The notes beneath the pieces are model-generated. The model ran no database searches. It had not been told where the DNA came from and worked only from the letters and a program-made list of their open reading frames with translations. From positions 20,641-84,640 of the forward strand of contig CASDQM010000026.1 of the NCBI GenBank assembly GCA_949282745.1: a DNA stretch of 64,000 bases, in the 5' to 3' direction. A program made the position numbers and the translations under genes. Positions 15,773-34,038 of the stretch are shown piece after piece. Origin of the DNA: an uncultured Sutterella sp. (GTDB lineage: Bacteria > Pseudomonadota > Gammaproteobacteria > Burkholderiales > Burkholderiaceae_F). How positions within the stretch are numbered: the first letter of the stretch is position 1; each line of letters opens with the position of its first letter.

Positions 15773-17230
15773 TCAGCTTCCCGCGAGGGCTTCGAGAGGC
15801 GCGGCTTCGCGCGGGGCCGTGCGGTCGGCCCGTTCGGCGCGGCTTTTGCGAACGCGCTGCGTCAGGTGATAGACCACAAAGCAGAGCACCGTGAACGGAA
15901 TGCCGCAGTAGAGAGCGATGCGCTGATCCGGATCGAAGCCCATGCCGACCATGACGGCCACGCAGAGGATCGCCCCCATGACGGGCACGAAGGGGAACCA
16001 GGGGCTCTTGTACTTGAGTTCCGAGAGATCATGCCCTTCCACGAGGAACTGCTTGCGGAAGCGGTAGTGCGCAATCGAAATGCTCAGCCACACGGCGACG
16101 GTCGAGAAGCCCACGATCGAGGTGAGGATCACGAAGACCGTATCGGCCGCCATGACGCTCGAACCGAGCGCGAGGAGCCCGCCGATCATGCTGAAGGCCA
16201 AGGCGTTCACCGGCACGCCGCGCTTGTTGAGCTTGGCGAGGCTCTTCGGCATCATGCCGTCCTTCCCGAGCGCCCAGACCATGCGGCCCGAGGCGTAGAG
16301 GCCCGTGTTGGCCGAGGAGAGGATCGCCGTGATGATGACGAAATTGAAGACGTCCGCCGCGTACGGAATGCCGAGGTTTTCAAAGACCGTGATGAAGGGG
16401 CTCTTCGAAACCGTCACCTCTTCGGGGGCGACCAAGGTCGCGACGATGAGAACCGTCCCCACGAAGAAAACGACGAGGCGCAGAAGCGAAGCGCGCACGG
16501 CGATCGGAATCACGCGTTCGGGCGCGTCCGTTTCGCCTGCGGCGACGCCGATGAGCTCGGTCCCCGAATAGGCAAAGCAGACAGTCACCATCGTGAAGAG
16601 GAGCGGCGCAAAGCCGTTGGGCAGAAGATCGCCGTCCCCCATCAGGTGCATGAGGCCGGGCGAGCCCGACTCGCCGAACGGGATCACGTCGAAGAAGGCG
16701 CAGGCCCCGAGCACGATGAAGATCTGAATCGTCACGACCTTCACGATCGAGAGCGCGAATTCGCTCTCCGCGAAGAACTTCGTGTCGATGACGTTCAGGA
16801 GGTAGATGATCGTGCCGAAGACGACGCACCACACCCATACCGGCACCTGCGGGAACCAGTACTGCATGGCAAAGCCCACGGCCGTGAAGGCCGTGCCGAG
16901 GGTGACCGTCCAGTTGAGCCAATAGAGCCACGCCACGGCAAAGCCCGAGGCGGGCGAGATGTACTTGCTCGCGTAGAGATGGAAGGAACCGGGTTCGGGA
17001 TGCGCCACGGAGAGCTCTCCGAGGCTCAGCATGATCAGATACACCATGAAGGCGCCGATCAGATACGCGACGATCGTGCCGAAGGCACCCACGTTCGCGA
17101 TGACGTGACCCGTTCCGAAAAAGAGTCCGCTGCCGATTACGCCGCCGAGACTCAACATGATCAAGTGGCGCAACCGCATCGAGCGCTGAAATTGGGACTC
17201 GTTGTTCGCCGTAACATTTTGGGAATTCAT
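15773..17230 (-). CDS. Amino acid permease of the APC family, MmuP-like
   Basis: About 485 residues with twelve predicted transmembrane helices; proton-coupled amino acid uptake at the inner membrane. The first helix has RHLIMLSLGGVIGSGLFFGTG, quoted here by its ends RHLIML and GSGLFFGTG, the APC signature. QYWFPQVPVWVWCVVF, FAYSGTELIGVAAGET and SANTGLYASGRM closely resemble the S-methylmethionine permease MmuP as I recall it, more than lysine or GABA permeases. Substrate is inferred only; no homocysteine methyltransferase gene (mmuM) is adjacent. The ATG at 17230 with AAAGGCGA before it is preferred to an in-frame TTG at 17248. It is a single-gene unit ended by a terminator at 15694-15729. 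Confidence 0.85.
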   Translation of the reverse strand: MNSQNVTANNESQFQRSMRLRHLIMLSLGGVIGSGLFFGTGHVIANVGAFGTIVAYLIGAFMVYLIMLSLGELSVAHPEPGSFHLYASKYISPASGFAVAWLYWLNWTVTLGTAFTAVGFAMQYWFPQVPVWVWCVVFGTIIYLLNVIDTKFFAESEFALSIVKVVTIQIFIVLGACAFFDVIPFGESGSPGLMHLMGDGDLLPNGFAPLLFTMVTVCFAYSGTELIGVAAGETDAPERVIPIAVRASLLRLVVFFVGTVLIVATLVAPEEVTVSKSPFITVFENLGIPYAADVFNFVIITAILSSANTGLYASGRMVWALGKDGMMPKSLAKLNKRGVPVNALAFSMIGGLLALGSSVMAADTVFVILTSIVGFSTVAVWLSISIAHYRFRKQFLVEGHDLSELKYKSPWFPFVPVMGAILCVAVMVGMGFDPDQRIALYCGIPFTVLCFVVYHLTQRVRKSRAERADRTAPREAAPLEALAGS

Positions 17231-25165: not shown

Positions 25166-25179
25166 GAGGAGAAATGACC

Positions 25180-26226
25180 ATGAAGATTTCCAAGACGCTC
25201 GTCGCCGCCGCCGTCACCGCCATCTCGGGCGTGGCCTGCGCCGCTTCGCTTCCGAACGTCGCCGTGCTCGCCACGGGCGGTACGATCGCCGGCGCCGGCA
25301 CGTCCGCCACGGGTTCGGCCTACACGGCCGGCAAGGTCTCGGTGAATCACCTCGTCGCCGCCGTGCCGCAGCTCGCCGACATCGCGAACGTCACCCCGGT
25401 TCAGGTCGCCCAGATCGGCTCGCAGGACATGTCCGACGAAGTCTGGCTCACGCTCGCCAAGACGATCAATCAGGACTGCGGCAAGTATGACGGCTTCGTC
25501 ATCACGCACGGCACCGACACGATGGAAGAAACGGCCTACTTCCTGCAGCTCACGAAGAAGTGCTCGAAGCCGGTCGTCATGGTTGGCGCCATGCTTCCCT
25601 CGACGGGTCTCTCCGCCGACGGTCCGCGCAACCTCTACAACGCCGTTCTGACGGCCGCCACGAAGGAATCTGCTGAATACGGCGTCGTCGTCGCGATGAA
25701 CAACACCATCGTCGGCGCGCGCGACGTCATCAAGACCAACACCGTCCAGCCCGAAACCTTCCAGGGCGGCAACTACGGCCGTCTCGGCACGATCTTCAAC
25801 GGCAAGGTCCGCTATGAAGTGAAGCCCCTGCGCGTCGACCACAAGACGCCGTTTGACGTGACGAACCTGAAGTCCCTGCCGAAGGTCGGCATCGTCTACA
25901 ACCACGCGGGCGTTGAAGGCGTTCAGGCCGAAGCGCTCGTCAAGGCCGGCTACAAGGGCATCGTGAGCGCCGGCGTCGGCAACGGCAACATCCACAAGTC
26001 GATCTTCCCGGTCCTTGAAAAGGCCGCGAAGGACGGCATCGCCGTGGTTCGTTCGAGCCGCGTCCCGACGGGCGCCACGACGAAGGACGCCGAAATCGAC
26101 GACAAGAAGTACGGCTGGGTGTCGTCGGGCGACCTCAACCCGCAGAAGGCCCGCGTCCTCCTGCAGCTTGCCCTCACGAAGACGACCGACTGGAAGGAAA
26201 TCCAGAAGTACTTCGACCAGTTCTAA
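25180..26226 (+). CDS. ansB: Periplasmic L-asparaginase, type II
   Basis: About 348 residues. It has an N-terminal Sec signal peptide (MKISKTLVAAAVTAISGVACA, cleavage about residue 21). The mature enzyme hydrolyses asparagine to aspartate and ammonia in the periplasm. The first active-site Thr is in VLATGGTIAGAG, and the second site is THGTDTMEETAY (Thr and Asp near 110). MVGAMLPSTGLSADGPRNLY and the C-terminal end KYFDQF are typical of AnsB. Two in-frame ATGs lie six bases apart; the second (25180) is better spaced from AGGAG. Located divergently from argG. The aspartate produced could feed argG and fumarate respiration. A leader hairpin precedes it and two hairpins follow. Confidence 0.95.
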   Translation: MKISKTLVAAAVTAISGVACAASLPNVAVLATGGTIAGAGTSATGSAYTAGKVSVNHLVAAVPQLADIANVTPVQVAQIGSQDMSDEVWLTLAKTINQDCGKYDGFVITHGTDTMEETAYFLQLTKKCSKPVVMVGAMLPSTGLSADGPRNLYNAVLTAATKESAEYGVVVAMNNTIVGARDVIKTNTVQPETFQGGNYGRLGTIFNGKVRYEVKPLRVDHKTPFDVTNLKSLPKVGIVYNHAGVEGVQAEALVKAGYKGIVSAGVGNGNIHKSIFPVLEKAAKDGIAVVRSSRVPTGATTKDAEIDDKKYGWVSSGDLNPQKARVLLQLALTKTTDWKEIQKYFDQF

Positions 26227-26240
26227 TGGTCTGAAGGCAT

Positions 26241-26260
26241 CGGGGAGCCTAGGCTCCCCG
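26241..26260 (+). terminator. Perfect palindrome after ansB
   Basis: CGGGGAGCC-TA-GGCTCCCCG lies 14 bases after the ansB stop with no T run. It is probably a 3' stability hairpin, backed up by the terminator at 26289. Confidence 0.5.
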
Positions 26261-26288
26261 ACGCAAGGTTTCCTCCTTGATTTTGAAT

Positions 26289-26324
26289 GCCCCAAAAGCC
26301 CTTGGCCTTTGGGGCCTTCTTTTT
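26289..26324 (+). terminator. Intrinsic terminator of ansB
   Basis: GCCCCAAA (26289-26296) pairs with TTTGGGGC (26308-26315), followed by CTTCTTTTT. It lies between ansB and the convergent kdpD. Confidence 0.8.
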
Positions 26325-26378
26325 GCCCGCCTTCGGGGGCCGCGCGGCCCCTTTCCCTCGAACCGAAGGGAAGGTCCG

Positions 26379-29135
26379 TCAGACGGTCTTGCCCGAGGAC
26401 GACTTCGCGTCGGCGTCTTCCGCAGGCGCCTCGACGCGCTTATCCGTCTTTCCGGTCTTTTCGGCCTTATCCGACGAAGTCTTCTCTTCGCCCTTCTCTT
26501 CTTCGGGCTCCTCCCAGTAGGGGAGCGTGAGCGTAAAGGCGGCGCCGCCGAAGCGCGAGGGCATCGCAAAGATTTCCGCGTCGTGCGCACGGGCGATCGT
26601 GCGGCAGACCGAGAGTCCGAGGCCGATCCCCGCGCCCGAGGCGGCCTGGCCGCGCCGGAAGGGGTCGAAGAGGCGCTGGGGATTTCCTTCGGGAAGGCCC
26701 GGCCCGTTGTCCGACACCGTCACGGCCACGCGGTCGCCGCGAAGCTTCGCGCCCAGAATGATGCGCGAGCCCTCGGGACAGTACTTCACGGCGTTGTCGA
26801 GCAGATTCACGATCACGCGCTTCAGAAGCTCTTCGTCGCCGTCGAGCGGCGGGAGATTTTCTTCGAGGTTCCACTCGATCTTGTAGCCTTCGAGTTCGGC
26901 TCCCAATTCCGCGATCGCCGACTCAAAGAGCGCGCGGACGCCCACGGGCGCGCGGTGAAGCTCGAAGTCGGAGGACTGAAGTTTCGCCATGTCCTGCAGA
27001 TTGATCGCGAGGTGCTCCATGCGGCTGGCGCCGTCAAAGAGCTTTTCGGCGTCGGCGACCAGGTCCGCGGGCGCGCCCGAACGTTCGACCTTTTCCAAAA
27101 AGCCTTCGCTCGCCTTCTTGAGGAGCGTGATCGGCGTGCGAAGGTCGTTCGAGAGCGACTGAATGAGGCCGTGGCGCAGACGCTCGGATTCCATCGAGAC
27201 GAGCGTCTGACGGGCTTCGGACGCAAAGCCGATGCGAAGGAGCGCCTGGGCACCCAGACCCGCGAGCGTTCCCACGAGGCGGCGCTGCGTGAGGTCGAGC
27301 GACTCCCCTTCGCGGGGCGCCAAGACGAGGACCGCGAGGACCTTGCCGCCCGCCATCATCGGGAGGTACCAGTAGGGCGAGGACGCAAGCGTATGCGTGC
27401 CGGAACCCGCGGGCTGACGATGATCGAAGCACCAGCGCACGATCCCGGGGTCGACGTTTTTGAGGACCATCTCGAGGCGCTCGAGCCGCAGGGTTTCGTC
27501 GTCGTCCGCGGTTTCGGGGACCCAGAATTCGGCTTCGACTTCGAGGTGATGACGAAGCGTGCCGGACACCACCTTGTAGGCGTCCTCTTCGACCAGGACC
27601 TGCGAGAGTTCGCGCGAAGCGTCAAAGAGCATGCGCGTCTGATGTTCGCGCTCGTTGGCGGCCTTGGCCATGTCTTCGCGGTGGGCGACCAACTGCCCGG
27701 CGACGAGCCCCACGACGAGCATCACGGCAAAGGTCACGACGTACTGCGCGTCGGTGACGGCAAAGGACCAGCGCGGTTCGATCGCCGTCAGGTTGAAGAT
27801 CAGAACCGAGAAGACCGCGGCGAGGGCCGCGGAGACGCTCCCGAAGCGCACCCCGCAGAAGAGGACGCAGAGGAGATAGACCATCGCCTGGTTCGTGGGC
27901 TCCATCACGTCCCAGAAGGGCGTGAGAACGAGCGCGCCCGCCAGAACCGTGAGCATCGCCTGCCAGACGCCGGGGCGTCCGAAGTCGAATTCGGCGAACC
28001 AGCGCTTCCACCCCGAGCGGGACTTCTTCACTTCCTCCGTGTCGGCGAGAACGAGCACGTTGAGTTCGGGGGCCGCACGATGCAGATCCCGGCGGCGGTG
28101 ACTCACCGAACGTTCGCTTGTTCCCACGATCGCGACGAGCGAAAGATTGTGTTCGCGCGCATAACGCGCGACCGTCTCGCCGTAGCGCCCCGCGAGGACG
28201 TCGCTTCGTCCGCCGAGTTCCTCGACGTAGTCGAAGAACTTCGTCACCGCCTCGCTGTCGGAGCGCTCGTTTCCCATCCCGTCCATCCAGACGACGTGCC
28301 AGGGTGATGAAAGGGCGCGCGCCATGCGGGCGACCTCGCGAACCGACTCTTCCGAGACGGATTCGAGAACGAGCAAAAGGCCGTAGTGGGTGTCTTCGAC
28401 GCTGCTTCGCGTGGAGCGCAGGCGCTCGGAGCGGATCTGCGTCTCCATGCGGCTTGCCATGGCGCGAAGCGCGAGTTCGCGAAGCGCAATGAGGTTGCTC
28501 TTTTTGAAGTAGGCGTCCTTGGCGCGCTCGACCACCTTCGGGAGATAAATCTTCCCCGCCGCGAGGCGCGCGAGGAGGTCGTCCGGAGGCAAGTCGATCA
28601 ACCGCACTTCGGAGGCGCGGTCGAACATGCGGTCGGGGACCGTTTCCGTGACGCTCACGCCCGTGACGCGCGCGACGACGCCGTTCAAGCTCTCGAGGTG
28701 CTGAATGTTGAGGGCCGTCCAGACGTCGATCCCCATGTCGAGGATCTCCTCGATGTCCTGCCAGCGCTTCGCGTGGCGCGACCCCGGCGGATTGCTGTGG
28801 GGCATTTCGTCGATCACGACGACCGACGGGCGGCGGCGCAGAATTTCGTCGATGTCGAGCGTGTCGACGGAAATCCCGTTGTACTCGATGCGCTTTCTCG
28901 GGAGGATTTCAAGCCCCCGCGTGAGCGCCTCGGTGTCCTTTCGCTTGTGCGTGTCGACCCAGCCGATGAGAACGTCGAGCCCGGCGTTCTTTCGCTGATG
29001 GGCTTCGGCGAGCATCGCGTAGGTCTTCCCCACCCCCGGCGCCATGCCGAGAAAGATGCGCAGTTTGCCGAGCGTCTTTTCCCGCGTTTCGGCGAGCATC
29101 GCCTCCGGATCGGGGCGCAGGTCTTCCTGGGTCAT
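26379..29135 (-). CDS. kdpD: KdpD-type sensor protein with the phospho-acceptor histidine replaced by asparagine
   Basis: A 918-residue protein with the full KdpD domain order: N-terminal KdpD domain with Walker A GMAPGVGKT (30-38) and DEMPHSNPPGSRHAKRWQD; a universal-stress-like segment; four transmembrane helices (about 395-500); GAF-like region; then a kinase core. The ATP-binding boxes look intact (NLLDNAVKY, DNGPGLP, GIGLGLSVCR). In the H box, SLSNDLRTPITLL replaces the usual S.SHDLRTPL: residue 663, codon AAC at 27149-27147, is Asn, not His. KdpD normally phosphorylates KdpE, but no kdpE follows; ansB is next and convergent. It overlaps kdpC by four bases (ATGA). Either a pseudokinase or a non-phosphorylating regulator. 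Confidence 0.93.
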   Translation of the reverse strand: MTQEDLRPDPEAMLAETREKTLGKLRIFLGMAPGVGKTYAMLAEAHQRKNAGLDVLIGWVDTHKRKDTEALTRGLEILPRKRIEYNGISVDTLDIDEILRRRPSVVVIDEMPHSNPPGSRHAKRWQDIEEILDMGIDVWTALNIQHLESLNGVVARVTGVSVTETVPDRMFDRASEVRLIDLPPDDLLARLAAGKIYLPKVVERAKDAYFKKSNLIALRELALRAMASRMETQIRSERLRSTRSSVEDTHYGLLLVLESVSEESVREVARMARALSSPWHVVWMDGMGNERSDSEAVTKFFDYVEELGGRSDVLAGRYGETVARYAREHNLSLVAIVGTSERSVSHRRRDLHRAAPELNVLVLADTEEVKKSRSGWKRWFAEFDFGRPGVWQAMLTVLAGALVLTPFWDVMEPTNQAMVYLLCVLFCGVRFGSVSAALAAVFSVLIFNLTAIEPRWSFAVTDAQYVVTFAVMLVVGLVAGQLVAHREDMAKAANEREHQTRMLFDASRELSQVLVEEDAYKVVSGTLRHHLEVEAEFWVPETADDDETLRLERLEMVLKNVDPGIVRWCFDHRQPAGSGTHTLASSPYWYLPMMAGGKVLAVLVLAPREGESLDLTQRRLVGTLAGLGAQALLRIGFASEARQTLVSMESERLRHGLIQSLSNDLRTPITLLKKASEGFLEKVERSGAPADLVADAEKLFDGASRMEHLAINLQDMAKLQSSDFELHRAPVGVRALFESAIAELGAELEGYKIEWNLEENLPPLDGDEELLKRVIVNLLDNAVKYCPEGSRIILGAKLRGDRVAVTVSDNGPGLPEGNPQRLFDPFRRGQAASGAGIGLGLSVCRTIARAHDAEIFAMPSRFGGAAFTLTLPYWEEPEEEKGEEKTSSDKAEKTGKTDKRVEAPAEDADAKSSSGKTV

Positions 29136-29746
29136 GACGGCGTCTCCTCAGTGGATTCGGGTTTCTTGAGCGTCTTCCCCTCCTTCTTCATTTCGGCGAG
29201 CACGAGCGCATTCAAGTCCGAAACGTTCACGAGGCGCTCAAAGCCGAAGCGGATCATCTCGCGGCGCATCACGCCGTGGACGAGTTCGTCGAGCCGTTGG
29301 GGGGAGAGCCCCGTTTGGCGGGCGACGTAGGGAATCTGATAAATCGCGGCGCGCATCGGAAGGTCCGGGTCGACGCCCGAAGCGGACGCCGTCACGAGCG
29401 CGACCGGAACGGGATCGCTGCCGCCCACGCGGGCGCGCCAGAGGGCGGCGCGCTTTTGCACGTCCTCGGCAAAGGCGGGGTTCGTGAGCGCGAGGTTCGA
29501 CCCCGTCGACGCGCCCTTTCGGGCTTCCGGCAAGGGGCGCCCTTCAAAGAGCCCCGTGTCGCGCCAGTCGACGCCGATCCGCACGTTTTGCGACGCGAGC
29601 TCCGGCGTCGCGAAGGCTTCGGCGTTCTTTGCGCCCGGCAAAATGTCGGCCGCGCCCGTCACGAGAGCCGGATAGACGACCCCGAGAAGAAGCACGGCAA
29701 AAACGAGAACGCCCAGGGCCCGGAGCAATCGAACGAGAAAATCCAC
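29132..29746 (-). CDS. kdpC: Potassium-transporting ATPase subunit KdpC
   Basis: A 204-residue subunit with one N-terminal transmembrane helix (about 5-27) and a periplasmic domain. It holds the KdpFABC complex together and raises affinity for K+. Visible landmarks are LFEGRPLPEARKGASTGSNLALTNPA (quoted by its ends LFEGRP and GSNLALTNP, about 65-90), VTASASGVDPDLPMRAA (about 118-134) and the YVARQTG segment. It lies ten bases after kdpB and overlaps kdpD by four bases. A Lys/Glu-rich C-terminal tail is slightly longer than usual. Confidence 0.95.
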   Translation of the reverse strand: MDFLVRLLRALGVLVFAVLLLGVVYPALVTGAADILPGAKNAEAFATPELASQNVRIGVDWRDTGLFEGRPLPEARKGASTGSNLALTNPAFAEDVQKRAALWRARVGGSDPVPVALVTASASGVDPDLPMRAAIYQIPYVARQTGLSPQRLDELVHGVMRREMIRFGFERLVNVSDLNALVLAEMKKEGKTLKKPESTEETPS

Positions 29747-29756
29747 GGCGCCTCCT

Positions 29757-31841
29757 TTAGAACCAGCCCGTCAGGCGGAGAAGTTGATCGATGAGCGCGA
29801 TCCCGACGAAGGGCGCGGCGATGCCGCTCACGCCCCAGACAAGGAGGTTTCGCGTCAGGAGTTCCGACGCGCCCACGGCGCGCGGCTCCACGCCCTTCAA
29901 GGCGAACGGCATGAGAAGCGGAATCACGAGGGCGTTGAAGATGACGGTCGAAAGAAGCGCCGACTCGGGCGAAGCGAGGCCGAGGACGTTCCAGCTCGCA
30001 AGGACCGGGTCGGTGGTGCTCAGCACCGCCGGAACCACCACGACGTACTTCGCGAGGTCGTTCATGAGCGAGAAGGTCGTAAGCGCCCCGCGGGTGATCA
30101 TCATTTCCTTCCCCGTTCGGATCACTTCCATGAGCTTCGTCGGGTTCGAGTCGAGATCGACCATGTTGGCGGCCTCTTTGGCCGCCTGCGTGCCGCCGTG
30201 CATGGCGAGCGCCACGTCGGCCTGCGCAAGCGCGGGCGCGTCGTTCGCGCCGTCCCCGGTCATGGCGACCAAGTGCCCCGCCTTCTGGAAGGCGCGGATG
30301 GCGGCGAGCTTCGACTCGGGCGTCGATTCGGCGATGAAGTCGTCCACCCCGGCTTCCGAGGCGATCGCGGCGGCCGTGAGGCGGTTGTCCCCCGTGATCA
30401 TCACGGTCTGCACGCCCATGCGTCGCAGTTTCGCGAATCGCGCGGCGATGTCGGGCTTCACCACGTCCTTCAATTCGATGAGGCCCAGAACCTTTTCGTC
30501 GACCGCGATGACGAGCGGCGTCGATCCGCGCGAGGCGATGGCGTCGACCTGCCCCTGAAGCGAATACGGGAAATAGCCCGAAAGCCGCGCGACGCGCGCC
30601 TTGATCGCTTCGGGAGAGCCCTTTCTCAGCTGCCGGCCGTCCTCGAGATTGATCCCCGACATGCGGGTCTGCGCGCTGAAGGGCACGAAGACGCCCTCTT
30701 CCGGGGGTTCCAAAGCGTCGGGATCGAGTCCGAGTTCGCGGGCGGCAAGTTCCATCACCGAGCGCCCTTCGGGCGTGTCGTCCGCGTAGGACGTGAGAAG
30801 ACAGGCTTCGAGAAGCGTTCGGCGGCTCACGCCCGAGACGGTGTAAAGACGCGTCGCGCGGCGGTTCCCGAAGGTGATCGTCCCCGTCTTGTCGAGAAGC
30901 AGAATGTCGACGTCGCCCGCCGCTTCGACGGCGCGCCCCGAGCGCGCGAGCACGTTCGCGGCGAGAAGACGCGTCATCCCGGCGATTCCGATCGGGCTCA
31001 GAAGGCCGCCGATCGTCGAGGGAATGAAGCTGATGAAAAGGCCCGTCAAGAAGGTGAAGCTCAGGGGCGAACCCACGCCCGAGCGCGAGACCGTAAAGAG
31101 CGACACCGGCAGAAGCGAGGCCGTGAGAAGGAGATAGACGATGGTGAGCGCGATGAGAAGGACGGAGAGCGACGTTTCGTTGGGCGTCGGCTTGCGCTCG
31201 GCCCCTTCGACCATGCGGATCATGCGCTCGACGAAGCCTCCGCCGCTTGCGATGCTCGGGCGCACGACGAGCCAGTCGGAGAGAACCGTCGTGCCGCTCG
31301 TGACGTTCGCGAAGTCCCCGCCCGCCTCGCGGATCACGGGGGCGGATTCGCCCGTCACGGCCGATTCGTCCACCGAGGCGACCCCGGCCACGACTTCGCC
31401 GTCGCAGGGAATGACGTCGCCCGGAAGGACGAGCACGAGGTCGTTGCCGAGAAGCGTCATCGAGTCGACCACCTGATGCGGCATGTCGGGCCCGAATTTG
31501 TCGGACGCGTTCACGATGCGCGCGGGCGTGCTCTGACGAAGGTTTTTGAGGGACGCCGCCTGCGCGTGCGCCCGCCCTTCGGCGAGGGCCTCGGCGAAGT
31601 TCGCAAAGAGGACCGTGAACCAGAGCCAGCCCGAAACGGCGAAGGCGAGTCCCGCGGGCTCTTCGGAGAGTCCGAGAAGGCTTGCGACGCCGACGGCGAA
31701 GGTGAAGAGGGCGCCCAGCCACACGAGGAACATCACGGGGTTCGCCCACTGCACTCTCGGGTGGAGCTTCACGAAACTCTGCTTGAGCGCGTCTTTGAGG
31801 AGCTCTTCGTAGAGCCGGGCGGTGAAACGGGGAAACTTCAT
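29757..31841 (-). CDS. kdpB: Potassium-transporting P-type ATPase subunit KdpB
   Basis: A 694-residue catalytic subunit that hydrolyses ATP to drive K+ uptake. The phosphorylated Asp317 is in LLLDKTGTITFGNR. The actuator loop TGES (163-166) includes Ser166, the equivalent of the inhibitory-phosphorylation serine of E. coli KdpB. MTGDGANDAPALAQADV is the hinge motif. In the membrane part LTTFSLMNDLAKY keeps the Asp and Lys that couple to KdpA. The length and order of domains are normal. It lies 11 bases after kdpA and ten before kdpC in a kdpFABCD operon. Confidence 0.97.
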   Translation of the reverse strand: MKFPRFTARLYEELLKDALKQSFVKLHPRVQWANPVMFLVWLGALFTFAVGVASLLGLSEEPAGLAFAVSGWLWFTVLFANFAEALAEGRAHAQAASLKNLRQSTPARIVNASDKFGPDMPHQVVDSMTLLGNDLVLVLPGDVIPCDGEVVAGVASVDESAVTGESAPVIREAGGDFANVTSGTTVLSDWLVVRPSIASGGGFVERMIRMVEGAERKPTPNETSLSVLLIALTIVYLLLTASLLPVSLFTVSRSGVGSPLSFTFLTGLFISFIPSTIGGLLSPIGIAGMTRLLAANVLARSGRAVEAAGDVDILLLDKTGTITFGNRRATRLYTVSGVSRRTLLEACLLTSYADDTPEGRSVMELAARELGLDPDALEPPEEGVFVPFSAQTRMSGINLEDGRQLRKGSPEAIKARVARLSGYFPYSLQGQVDAIASRGSTPLVIAVDEKVLGLIELKDVVKPDIAARFAKLRRMGVQTVMITGDNRLTAAAIASEAGVDDFIAESTPESKLAAIRAFQKAGHLVAMTGDGANDAPALAQADVALAMHGGTQAAKEAANMVDLDSNPTKLMEVIRTGKEMMITRGALTTFSLMNDLAKYVVVVPAVLSTTDPVLASWNVLGLASPESALLSTVIFNALVIPLLMPFALKGVEPRAVGASELLTRNLLVWGVSGIAAPFVGIALIDQLLRLTGWF

Positions 31842-31852
31842 CGCGGACTCCC

Positions 31853-33538
31853 TCAGAGAACGAAGTACTCAAGCTGCTCGGCGGCGGAGCCGAGCGCCAT
31901 GAGCGGGAGGTAGGTGAGCGCCCCGAAGAGCAGGATCACGCAGGCGAGGAAGACCGCAAAGAGCGGACCGCTCGTCACGAGCGACCCCTTCGAGTGGGGC
32001 GTGCGGCGCTCGAGCCCCACGTCGCCCGCGAGCGCGAGAAGAAAGCCGAGCGACCCCGCGCGGCCCGCGAGCATGGCGATCCCGAGGCCGATTTCAAAGA
32101 AGGGCGAACTCGTGTCGAGCCCCGCCATGGCGGAGCCGCTGTTGCTTGCGACCGACGACCAGGCGTAGAGGATTTCCGTGTAGCCGTGCGCGCCGGGATT
32201 CGCGACCGCCTCCTGCGCGATCGGCATGAGAAGCGTGACGATGAGACCCGTGAGCGCGACCACCGGCACGACGAGCGTCGCGAGGGCGGCGAGCTTGATC
32301 GAAGAAACGCCGAGACGTTTTCCGAGGTACTCCGGCGCGCGCCCGATCATGAGGCCCGCAATGAAGACGGCGAGGACCACGTAGACGGCAAGCGAAATGA
32401 AGCCCGCTCCGGCCGATCCGAAGACCCCGCCCGTGAGCATGAGAAGAAGGAGCACCATCCCCGCGCCCGGGGCGAGCGTGTCGAGAAGATTGTTGACGGC
32501 CCCCGTGCCGCTTGCGATCGACGTCACCGTAAAGAGCGCCGTGTGCGCCAGGCCGAAGCGCGAGTCCTTCCCTTCCGTCATGAAGCCTCGGGCGTCAATG
32601 CCGTATTGGGCGAGGAAATTGCCCGCGGTGATCTCGTCGTGCACGAAGGAAAAGAGCGCGATCGCAAAGACGATCCACATCGCCCAGAGAAGGCTTCGGC
32701 CCTCGCGGGCGTCGCCCGTGAGCTTCGCGAAGGTGTGCACGAGCGCCACGGGAATCGCGAGCATCCCGACCGAGGCGGCGAAGTTGACGCCCGCCGACGG
32801 GCTCGCAAGGGGATGCGCCGAATTCGCGCCGAAAAGCCCCGCGCCGATCGTGCCGATCGTCTTGACGGCCTCGCTCGAGGCGGCGGGACCGATCAACTGC
32901 GACGCCTCGCGTCCTACGGCGTTGACGACTTCGACCGAACCGATCCAGGCCTGCGGCACGCCCATCAGAAGAAGAAAGAGCGCGTAGAGCGTGCAAAGCG
33001 GAAAGAGGACCCAGAGGAGAATGCGAAGGAGGTCCACCCAGAAGTTTCCGAGAACGTTCGTGGCCGACAGCGCGAAGCCCCGCATGACGACGAAGGCGAC
33101 GGCGATGCCGCTTGCGGTCGAGACGAACTGCGCGACGCCGATCCCGATCGCCTGCGAGAAAAGCGAAAGCGTCGTCTCGGGGGAATAGGCCTGCCAGGCC
33201 GTTCCGGAAATGAAGGAGGCCGCCGTGTGCAGGGCCGTCACGAAGGGGACGCCCGGGAGTCCGTCGGGATTGCCCGGCAGATGCCCCTGAAGAAGGAGCA
33301 CCGCCACAAGAAAGACGTAGGCGAGAACGTGAAAGAGAAGGACCGAGAGCGCGTAGTCGCGCCAGTTTTCCTGCGCGTCGGGGCGAAGGCCGAAGGCCTT
33401 CAAAAGCCAGCGGTCGGCCGTTGCGACGCAGGCGGGCGCACGCCCCTGGGCGAGCGGCAGAAACCAGAGTCCCAAGGGCCTTCCAATGATCGCGAGCGCG
33501 AGGACGAAGAGTGTGAAGAGTTCAAGCGTGTCGAGCAT
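31853..33538 (-). CDS. kdpA: Potassium-transporting ATPase channel-like subunit KdpA, divergent pore motifs
   Basis: A 561-residue membrane protein with ten or so helices, related to K+ channels, which binds and translocates K+ in the KdpFABC complex. AVFIAGLMIGRAPEYLGK (about 390-407) and LLWAMW (283-288) confirm the family. The four selectivity-filter regions are unusual: SGTAWQ (111-116) where TNTNWQ is common; GTIGAGLFGANSAHP (229-243) where GTNGGGFFNANS.HP is nearly invariant; SGTGAVN (343-349) for SCGAV; and SNSGSAMAG (465-473) for NNNGSAFAG. The core glycines persist. Altered affinity or selectivity is an inference. It is preceded by a 25-residue kdpF. Confidence 0.94.
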   Translation of the reverse strand: MLDTLELFTLFVLALAIIGRPLGLWFLPLAQGRAPACVATADRWLLKAFGLRPDAQENWRDYALSVLLFHVLAYVFLVAVLLLQGHLPGNPDGLPGVPFVTALHTAASFISGTAWQAYSPETTLSLFSQAIGIGVAQFVSTASGIAVAFVVMRGFALSATNVLGNFWVDLLRILLWVLFPLCTLYALFLLLMGVPQAWIGSVEVVNAVGREASQLIGPAASSEAVKTIGTIGAGLFGANSAHPLASPSAGVNFAASVGMLAIPVALVHTFAKLTGDAREGRSLLWAMWIVFAIALFSFVHDEITAGNFLAQYGIDARGFMTEGKDSRFGLAHTALFTVTSIASGTGAVNNLLDTLAPGAGMVLLLLMLTGGVFGSAGAGFISLAVYVVLAVFIAGLMIGRAPEYLGKRLGVSSIKLAALATLVVPVVALTGLIVTLLMPIAQEAVANPGAHGYTEILYAWSSVASNSGSAMAGLDTSSPFFEIGLGIAMLAGRAGSLGFLLALAGDVGLERRTPHSKGSLVTSGPLFAVFLACVILLFGALTYLPLMALGSAAEQLEYFVL

Positions 33539-33558: not shown

Positions 33559-33636
33559 TCAGGCACGCCACAGTTCGTAGAACAGACGAAGGAGCAAAAC
33601 GAGCACCGCCGCGAAAAAGAAAAGCGTATCGATCAC
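33559..33636 (-). CDS. kdpF: Small KdpF-like subunit
   Basis: A 25-residue single-helix peptide, VIDTLFFFAAVLVLLLRLFY followed by ELWRA, starting at a GTG (33636) with GGGGAG eight to nine bases upstream. KdpF peptides of about 29 residues stabilise the KdpFABC complex in the membrane. Position (20 bases before kdpA, same strand), size and hydrophobicity fit. The sequence is too short for independent proof. Confidence 0.75.
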   Translation of the reverse strand: MIDTLFFFAAVLVLLLRLFYELWRA

Positions 33637-33804
33637 TCGAGACGACTCCCCGTAGAAAAACCAAAACGCATGAGAAAGCGGGTGCCCGGATGAGCACCCG
33701 AAAATTTCCCCACATGTTAGCCCATCGGGAGGATCTCGGGGCGTTCGGATCGTGTCCGACTTCTCGGGCCGCCAAACAAATCGAAAATTTCTTTTCACGG
33801 ACCC

Positions 33805-33854: not shown

Positions 33855-33931
33855 GCGGCTGTAGCTCAGTTGGATAGAGTATCTGGCTACGAACCAGAGG
33901 GTCGTGGGTTCGAATCCTGCCAGCCGCGCCA
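33855..33931 (+). tRNA. tRNA-Arg (anticodon ACG), copy 1
   Basis: A 77-base cloverleaf with acceptor GCGGCTG/CAGCCGC, anticodon loop CTACGAA, T-loop TTCGAAT and encoded CCA. It reads CGT and, after A34-to-inosine, CGC, the main Arg codons of the window. Confidence 0.97.
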
Positions 33932-33961
33932 TTTGATCTGCAGAACAATTTGTGAAAATGC

Positions 33962-34038
33962 GCGGCTGTAGCTCAGTTGGATAGAGTATCTGGCTACGAA
34001 CCAGAGGGTCGTGGGTTCGAATCCTGCCAGCCGCGCCA
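33962..34038 (+). tRNA. tRNA-Arg (anticodon ACG), copy 2
   Basis: Identical to the copy at 33855-33931, 30 bases downstream and co-transcribed from the same promoter. CCA is encoded. Confidence 0.97.

Follow-up and report, generated by a model that had tools for sequence, protein, structure and literature searches.

The KdpD protein encoded in the window (the whole 64,000-nucleotide stretch of DNA from an uncultured Sutterella sp. that was analysed) is most likely no longer a histidine kinase. Judging by its sequence and those of its relatives, it would be, with a probability of about two in three, a serine kinase dedicated to switching its pump off, with the former histidine-kinase core kept as a pseudo-histidine kinase. 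The acceptor histidine and KdpE are both absent, the serine-kinase residues and their KdpB target are kept, the paired loss is recurrent, and purifying selection acts on the protein; from these observations we infer its kinase activity, the control of this activity by potassium, and any role of the core. When potassium is plentiful, the N-terminal Walker A/B domain would phosphorylate KdpB at Ser166 (Ser162 in E. coli), by which KdpFABC would be stopped. Loss of KdpE would have made the histidine dispensable, with Asn taking its place. The DHp/CA core would survive as a pseudo-histidine kinase that probably serves dimerisation and lets the membrane and GAF domains pass potassium or ATP state on to the serine kinase. 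Another regulator would have taken over kdp transcription, or it would have become constitutive.

The kdpD gene, its operon and the putative serine-kinase domain

The kdpD gene (26379..29135, minus strand) is open over 918 codons and, by its frame and Pfam domains, encodes a full-length protein without the phospho-acceptor histidine. The KdpD (PF02702, 306 bits), DUF4118 (PF13493, 83 bits), and HATPase_c domains all exceed their cut-offs, and the protein belongs to the KdpDs by virtue of its KdpD domain, its DUF4118 membrane domain, and the adjoining kdpABC. The H box is SLSNDLRTP, and direct reading of the codon at 27147..27149 (minus strand) gives AAC, i.e., Asn663 in place of E. coli His673, the residue that a KdpD histidine kinase uses as phospho-acceptor. 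The DHp region (about residues 650-722; 26970..27188, minus strand), delimited by alignment, retains the Asp one residue (+1) and the Thr four residues (+4) after the place of the lost histidine. In the CA domain (residues 766-873; 26517..26840, minus strand), defined by Pfam HATPase_c and alignment, the N, G1, F, and G2 boxes are all intact. Thus, what the preliminary description had read from the letters (the H box with Asn, the open frame, and the intact Walker A, N, G1, and G2 motifs) holds in full, and the F box can be added to it. HisKA, scored for the window KdpD alone, gave 16.3 bits against a cut-off of 26.9; the protein also stays below the cut-offs of the NCBIfam equivalog for KdpD histidine kinases (NF007793, 743 against 1123 bits) and of KdpD_non_kinase (NF038185, 291 against 550 bits). 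A nearby histidine in the sequence RLRH was rejected as a replacement acceptor because four of the five KdpDs of the same genus that have the acceptor histidine carry it as well. The last 41 residues (878-918; 26382-26504, minus strand) form a charged low-complexity tail with pLDDT below 50 in an AlphaFold2 model, whose mean pLDDT is 73.7 and whose pTM of 0.35 makes the domain arrangement uninformative.

KdpD is carried by 7 of the 12 genomes of the genus. The nearest relative, a second species (G009), has a KdpD 97% identical to that of the window with AAC at the same codon, and the other five (G001, G003, G004, G007, and G011) have CAC or CAT for His and a kdpE adjoining kdpD; it is this comparison of the H-box column that had been proposed as a check. 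Since Asn is common to the window genome (G000) and G009, the loss of His predates their split.

The operon is kdp(F)ABCD, all on the minus strand. A 25-residue hydrophobic frame with a GTG start (33559..33636) is probably kdpF, as its sequence and position suggest, and is conserved in G009; kdpA (31853..33538) and kdpB (29757..31841) are recognised by TIGR00680 and TIGR01497 above cut-off, and kdpC (29132..29746) is assigned by its operon position and by NCBIfam KdpC models with a best E of 3e-31, below their cut-offs. The target Ser166 of KdpB lies in a TGES motif (codon 31346-31344). No kdpE stands beside kdpD, as had been noticed before: its neighbour is an asparaginase gene in convergent orientation (25174-26226). 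Two tRNA-Arg (acg) genes (33855-34038, plus strand) lie upstream of the operon in divergent orientation. Between the window and the corresponding locus of G009 (L116), synonymous divergence over 25174-33538 falls along the locus (kdpA 0.47, kdpB 0.46, kdpC 0.64, kdpD 0.28, and asparaginase 0.09), which suggests recombination.

The whole-genome search that had been proposed found neither a relocated kdpE nor a second KdpD; a PF02702 profile search returned a single KdpD. The best KdpE match in the window genome (38% identical, E 4.6e-41) is not KdpE by model: it fits the RpaB model best (203 bits), with several regulator models above KdpE (150 bits), whereas for a genuine KdpE of the same genus the KdpE model is the best-scoring one (275 bits). 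Best matches in the window genome and G009 are 38-39% identical; full-length KdpEs of the family are 54-64% identical to E. coli KdpE. By similarity and model search, therefore, the cognate regulator needed for a KdpDE two-component system is missing from the assembly of the window genome (92.5% complete, 55 contigs); kdpE is also missing from that of G009 (99% complete, 40 contigs).

According to Silberberg et al. 2024 (PMC11018627), the N-terminal domain of E. coli KdpD acts as an atypical serine kinase: at high potassium it phosphorylates Ser162 of KdpB and so stops the pump. As reported there, this phosphorylation requires neither H673 nor the DHp/CA domains, KdpD without DHp/CA remains functional in E. 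coli, and the control of the serine kinase is still to be characterised. The corresponding domain of the window KdpD (28449..29069, minus strand; Pfam residues 23-229), aligned to E. coli, keeps G36, K37, and T38, Tyr39, D109 and E110, and R190. With the Walker A GKT, the Walker B DE, the adenine pair 39/190, and the Glu-Ser target in KdpB all in place, the protein would qualify as such a kinase, with Tyr at residue 39 where E. coli has Trp. The GKT, aromatic 39, D109/E110, and R190 are retained in all ten full-length His-less KdpDs found in this work, Trp39 being replaced by Tyr or Phe across the ten, and the TGES of KdpB is retained in all ten of their genomes.

Joint absence of KdpE and the acceptor histidine

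In a survey of 67 genomes of the family, the acceptor column was readable in 21 KdpDs with an N-terminal region. G033 and G035 were cut by contig ends, and G008 (kdpB but no kdpD, the contig ending inside kdpC), G065 (gene split over contigs), and G038 (a fragment) were left out of the counts. All seven KdpDs without KdpE lack the histidine and have Asn (the window genome and G009), Gln (G055 and G058), or Arg (G056, G057, and G059) instead. Among those with KdpE, His is present in 13 of 14 (the kdpE of G036 being a fragment at a contig end); the single exception, G022, has Asp at the acceptor position and a KdpE. Its kdpABCD operon with the Asp-bearing KdpD (L122, contig C19) is apart from a relic locus (L128 10832-12015, contig C22), where an intact kdpE lies beside a kdpC fragment and a C-terminal fragment of kdpD. 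The family tree, in which G022, G053, and the g15/L190 join are on long branches, needs three state changes, forced by well-supported branches and most simply read as three losses.

The reverse pairing is seen in G053 and G050 (the latter assembly 8% contaminated). Both keep KdpE and the histidine and have no kdpB, and in their KdpDs (L135 8753-11326 and L229 7861-9318, respectively) the serine-kinase domain carries substitutions (GRA for GKT, EH for DE) or is absent altogether. G036, with an intact serine kinase and no kdpB match, was not counted as pump-less because its contig breaks off within kdpE, at a point upstream of the place of kdpABC in its genus.

Samples of 399 genomes from the order and 398 from the phylum each gave 150 genomes with a KdpD match. 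KdpE was absent at E 1e-58 from nine of the 150 in the order: the window genome, seven of family f41, whose KdpDs stop where DHp begins, and G258, where His is present and kdpE carries an internal deletion. In the phylum, five of 150 lack KdpE at E 1e-48, i.e., the window genome, G811 (Tyr), G579 (Ala, with an eroded ATP site), and G531 and G746 (both His). Histidine was found in 80 of 80 named KdpDs picked by similarity to that of the window, in 40 of 40 hand-picked KdpE-positive genomes of the order and phylum, and in 13 further KdpE-positive genomes, the organisms of these three sets possibly overlapping. Eighteen of the 80 named KdpDs have no kdpE in the surrounding stretch; in 14 of the 15 genomes searched (L181, L172, and L201 were not included) it is elsewhere, and in Xenorhabdus japonica, where His is present, there is no kdpE at E 1e-38 but a 24-residue remnant.

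Overall, the histidine is missing from 9 of the 13 full-length KdpDs whose genomes lack KdpE. The four that keep His (G258, G531, G746, and Xenorhabdus japonica) rule out a strict rule of 'no KdpE, no His', and the pairing is therefore a trend. Two of the four have a kdpE relic beside the His-bearing KdpD (L216 2555-2765 in G258 and L165 9765-9836 in Xenorhabdus japonica), as expected if kdpE is lost first; such a state is possibly the first step of the loss. G746 and Xenorhabdus japonica are close relatives. G811 and G579 are neighbours in the gene tree, on long branches, and hence represent one or two losses, so that the ten full-length His-less KdpDs go back to at least four (Asn; Asp; Arg/Gln; Tyr/Ala). 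In nine of these ten genomes kdpE is absent, and in the tenth (G022) it adjoins a kdpD relic.

It is possible, though doubtful, that the histidine-kinase core has been repurposed repeatedly and independently as a non-phosphotransferring reader that relays potassium or ATP state to the serine kinase, giving natural separation-of-function forms of a tandem kinase. Against the main reading of the window KdpD as a dedicated serine kinase stand the four His-bearing exceptions just named, Tyr39 in place of Trp39, and G022, with His lost and an intact kdpE kept. Diadenylate cyclase (PF02457) was found in none of the 67 family genomes and in 11 of 14 control genomes, and the short c-di-AMP-controlled design (KdpD and Usp domains only, plus diadenylate cyclase) is therefore closed to the family; the window KdpD, a full-length protein, is not of this type. 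We suppose that the absence of the cyclase may be the reason why the potassium-sensing chassis was kept rather than the short form.

Selection on the core and control of transcription

Between the window genome and G009, all 12 changes in DHp are synonymous (0 non-synonymous; Fisher p about 1e-8), and CA has 3.5 non-synonymous against 20.5 synonymous changes (p about 2e-9). For two g15 pairs, also His-less, the p values run from 0.001 to 3e-13, again pointing to purifying selection on DHp/CA. For the same window-G009 comparison, dN/dS is 0.07 for KdpD, 0.17 for kdpA, 0.18 for kdpC, and 0.05 for kdpB. The DHp and CA counts of the window-G009 pair argue against a core that is useless and in early decay, leaving a serine kinase only, a reading that we consider rather unlikely for the window. 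It draws on the functionality of E. coli KdpD without DHp/CA (PMC11018627) and on the older His-less lineages, some of which erode the ATP site: the g15 proteins have no F box and an incomplete G2, and G579 has lost N, G1, and G2. The ratio of branch lengths in the histidine-kinase core to those in the serine kinase is likewise high for the stems of g15 (4.4) and of G055/G058 (7.3), for G579 (5.1) and G811 (4.6), and for His-bearing G746 (5.3) as well. The window stem (3.1), however, falls inside the range of 11 KdpE-positive branches (1.6-4.1), as does G022 (3.4), and the ratio is not raised in two g15 branches (G056/G057 1.5 and G059 3.1) or in Xenorhabdus (1.3). The core of the window KdpD thus looks maintained, and selection on DHp/CA is silent on what its role is.

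It seems quite improbable that the core goes on signalling in spite of its missing histidine, either by dephosphorylating some other response regulator or by docking to one. The window KdpD retains Asp at +1 and Thr at +4 of its H box (NDLRT), the genome has 33 receiver-domain matches, and DivL works with Tyr at the acceptor site (PMC4211667); on the other hand, the +4 Thr is gone in G022 and g15, no candidate partner was found, and the window lacks both KdpE and an operator above chance.

The E. coli KdpE box is given as TTTATA-N5-TTTACA (PMC3264566). Scoring with the E. coli consensus covered 700 bases upstream of kdp (679 in E. coli) at 27 loci, with 30 mononucleotide shuffles each. The best site exceeded all shuffles in G003, G007, G011, G008, G032, G066, E. 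coli, and G507, and also in kdpE-less G009, where it is on the opposite strand and not common to the window. No such site was found in the window, in the five g15 genomes, G811, G579, Xenorhabdus, or G746, nor in KdpE-bearing G001, G004, G798, G818, G527, G774, G069, and G079. Because G009 scores and these eight loci do not, operator loss in the window is suggestive only. In the leader, the window (33712-33746, minus strand) and G009 (L116 around 16542-16561, minus strand) share without any difference a block of 35 nucleotides between diverged flanks, which holds CCCGA twice with 11-bp spacing; its 20-base core occurs in 1 of 286 fetched loci, and it could be the site of a regulator that replaced KdpE. 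An Rfam search of the kdp leader at E up to 1 spoke against a riboswitch: two tRNAs exceeded their thresholds, and three weak matches fell short of theirs.

Finally, an artefact of sequencing or assembly as the source of the Asn codon can practically be dismissed: AAC and CAC are one base apart and the window assembly is a draft, but the identical AAC is found in G009 although kdpD dS between the two is about 0.28, and kdpE is absent from both genomes.

The preliminary description had suggested that this KdpD controls the pump or transcription without histidine phosphotransfer. What is supported is a maintained protein without histidine phosphotransfer, with Asn in two species, DHp/CA under purifying selection, and no kdpE found in the genome; as to the two targets, the published serine kinase with its residues intact here (PMC11018627) favours the pump, and the absence of KdpE and of a KdpE-type operator above chance speaks against transcription.

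Comparison with known systems

KdpDs without histidine-kinase domains have been described, mostly in species without KdpE, by the authors of PMC11018627, who inspected the catalytic histidine by alignment; hence, the novelty is smaller than the preliminary description held. The forms described in the part of that paper drawn on here are short or truncated, and its supplementary tables may list full-length cases. No title or abstract among the literature matches listed has a full-length His-less KdpD as its subject. The window KdpD stands out as a full-length protein whose ATP-binding domain is intact and which is still under strong purifying selection; it would have been reduced to its serine kinase by substitution, not truncation. 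Such proteins, stripped of phosphotransfer yet under selection, offer a way to ask whether the membrane, GAF, and DHp/CA parts convey the potassium signal to the serine kinase when histidine chemistry does not interfere. Moreover, paired losses in both directions (the histidine where KdpE is gone, the serine kinase where the pump is gone) lend evolutionary support to the two-kinase model. They also carry a warning, since annotation by domains only calls His-less KdpDs histidine kinases.

The pseudo-histidine kinase DivL, as described in PMC4211667, resembles the window KdpD in keeping the DHp/CA core with another residue for His. It is a different protein, however, which senses phosphorylated DivK, and nothing points to that here. 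With E. coli KdpD (PMC11018627) the window protein shares the full domain set, the serine-kinase residues, and the target serine of KdpB, and differs from it in having neither the acceptor histidine nor KdpE. The closest likeness in control is to the KdpDs without histidine-kinase domains of kdpE-less species (PMC11018627; family f41 here), where KdpE is likewise absent, the serine kinase is kept, and control would be exerted on the pump only; whereas those are described as short or truncated, the window KdpD has a full-length core with an intact ATP site, in which only the acceptor is substituted.
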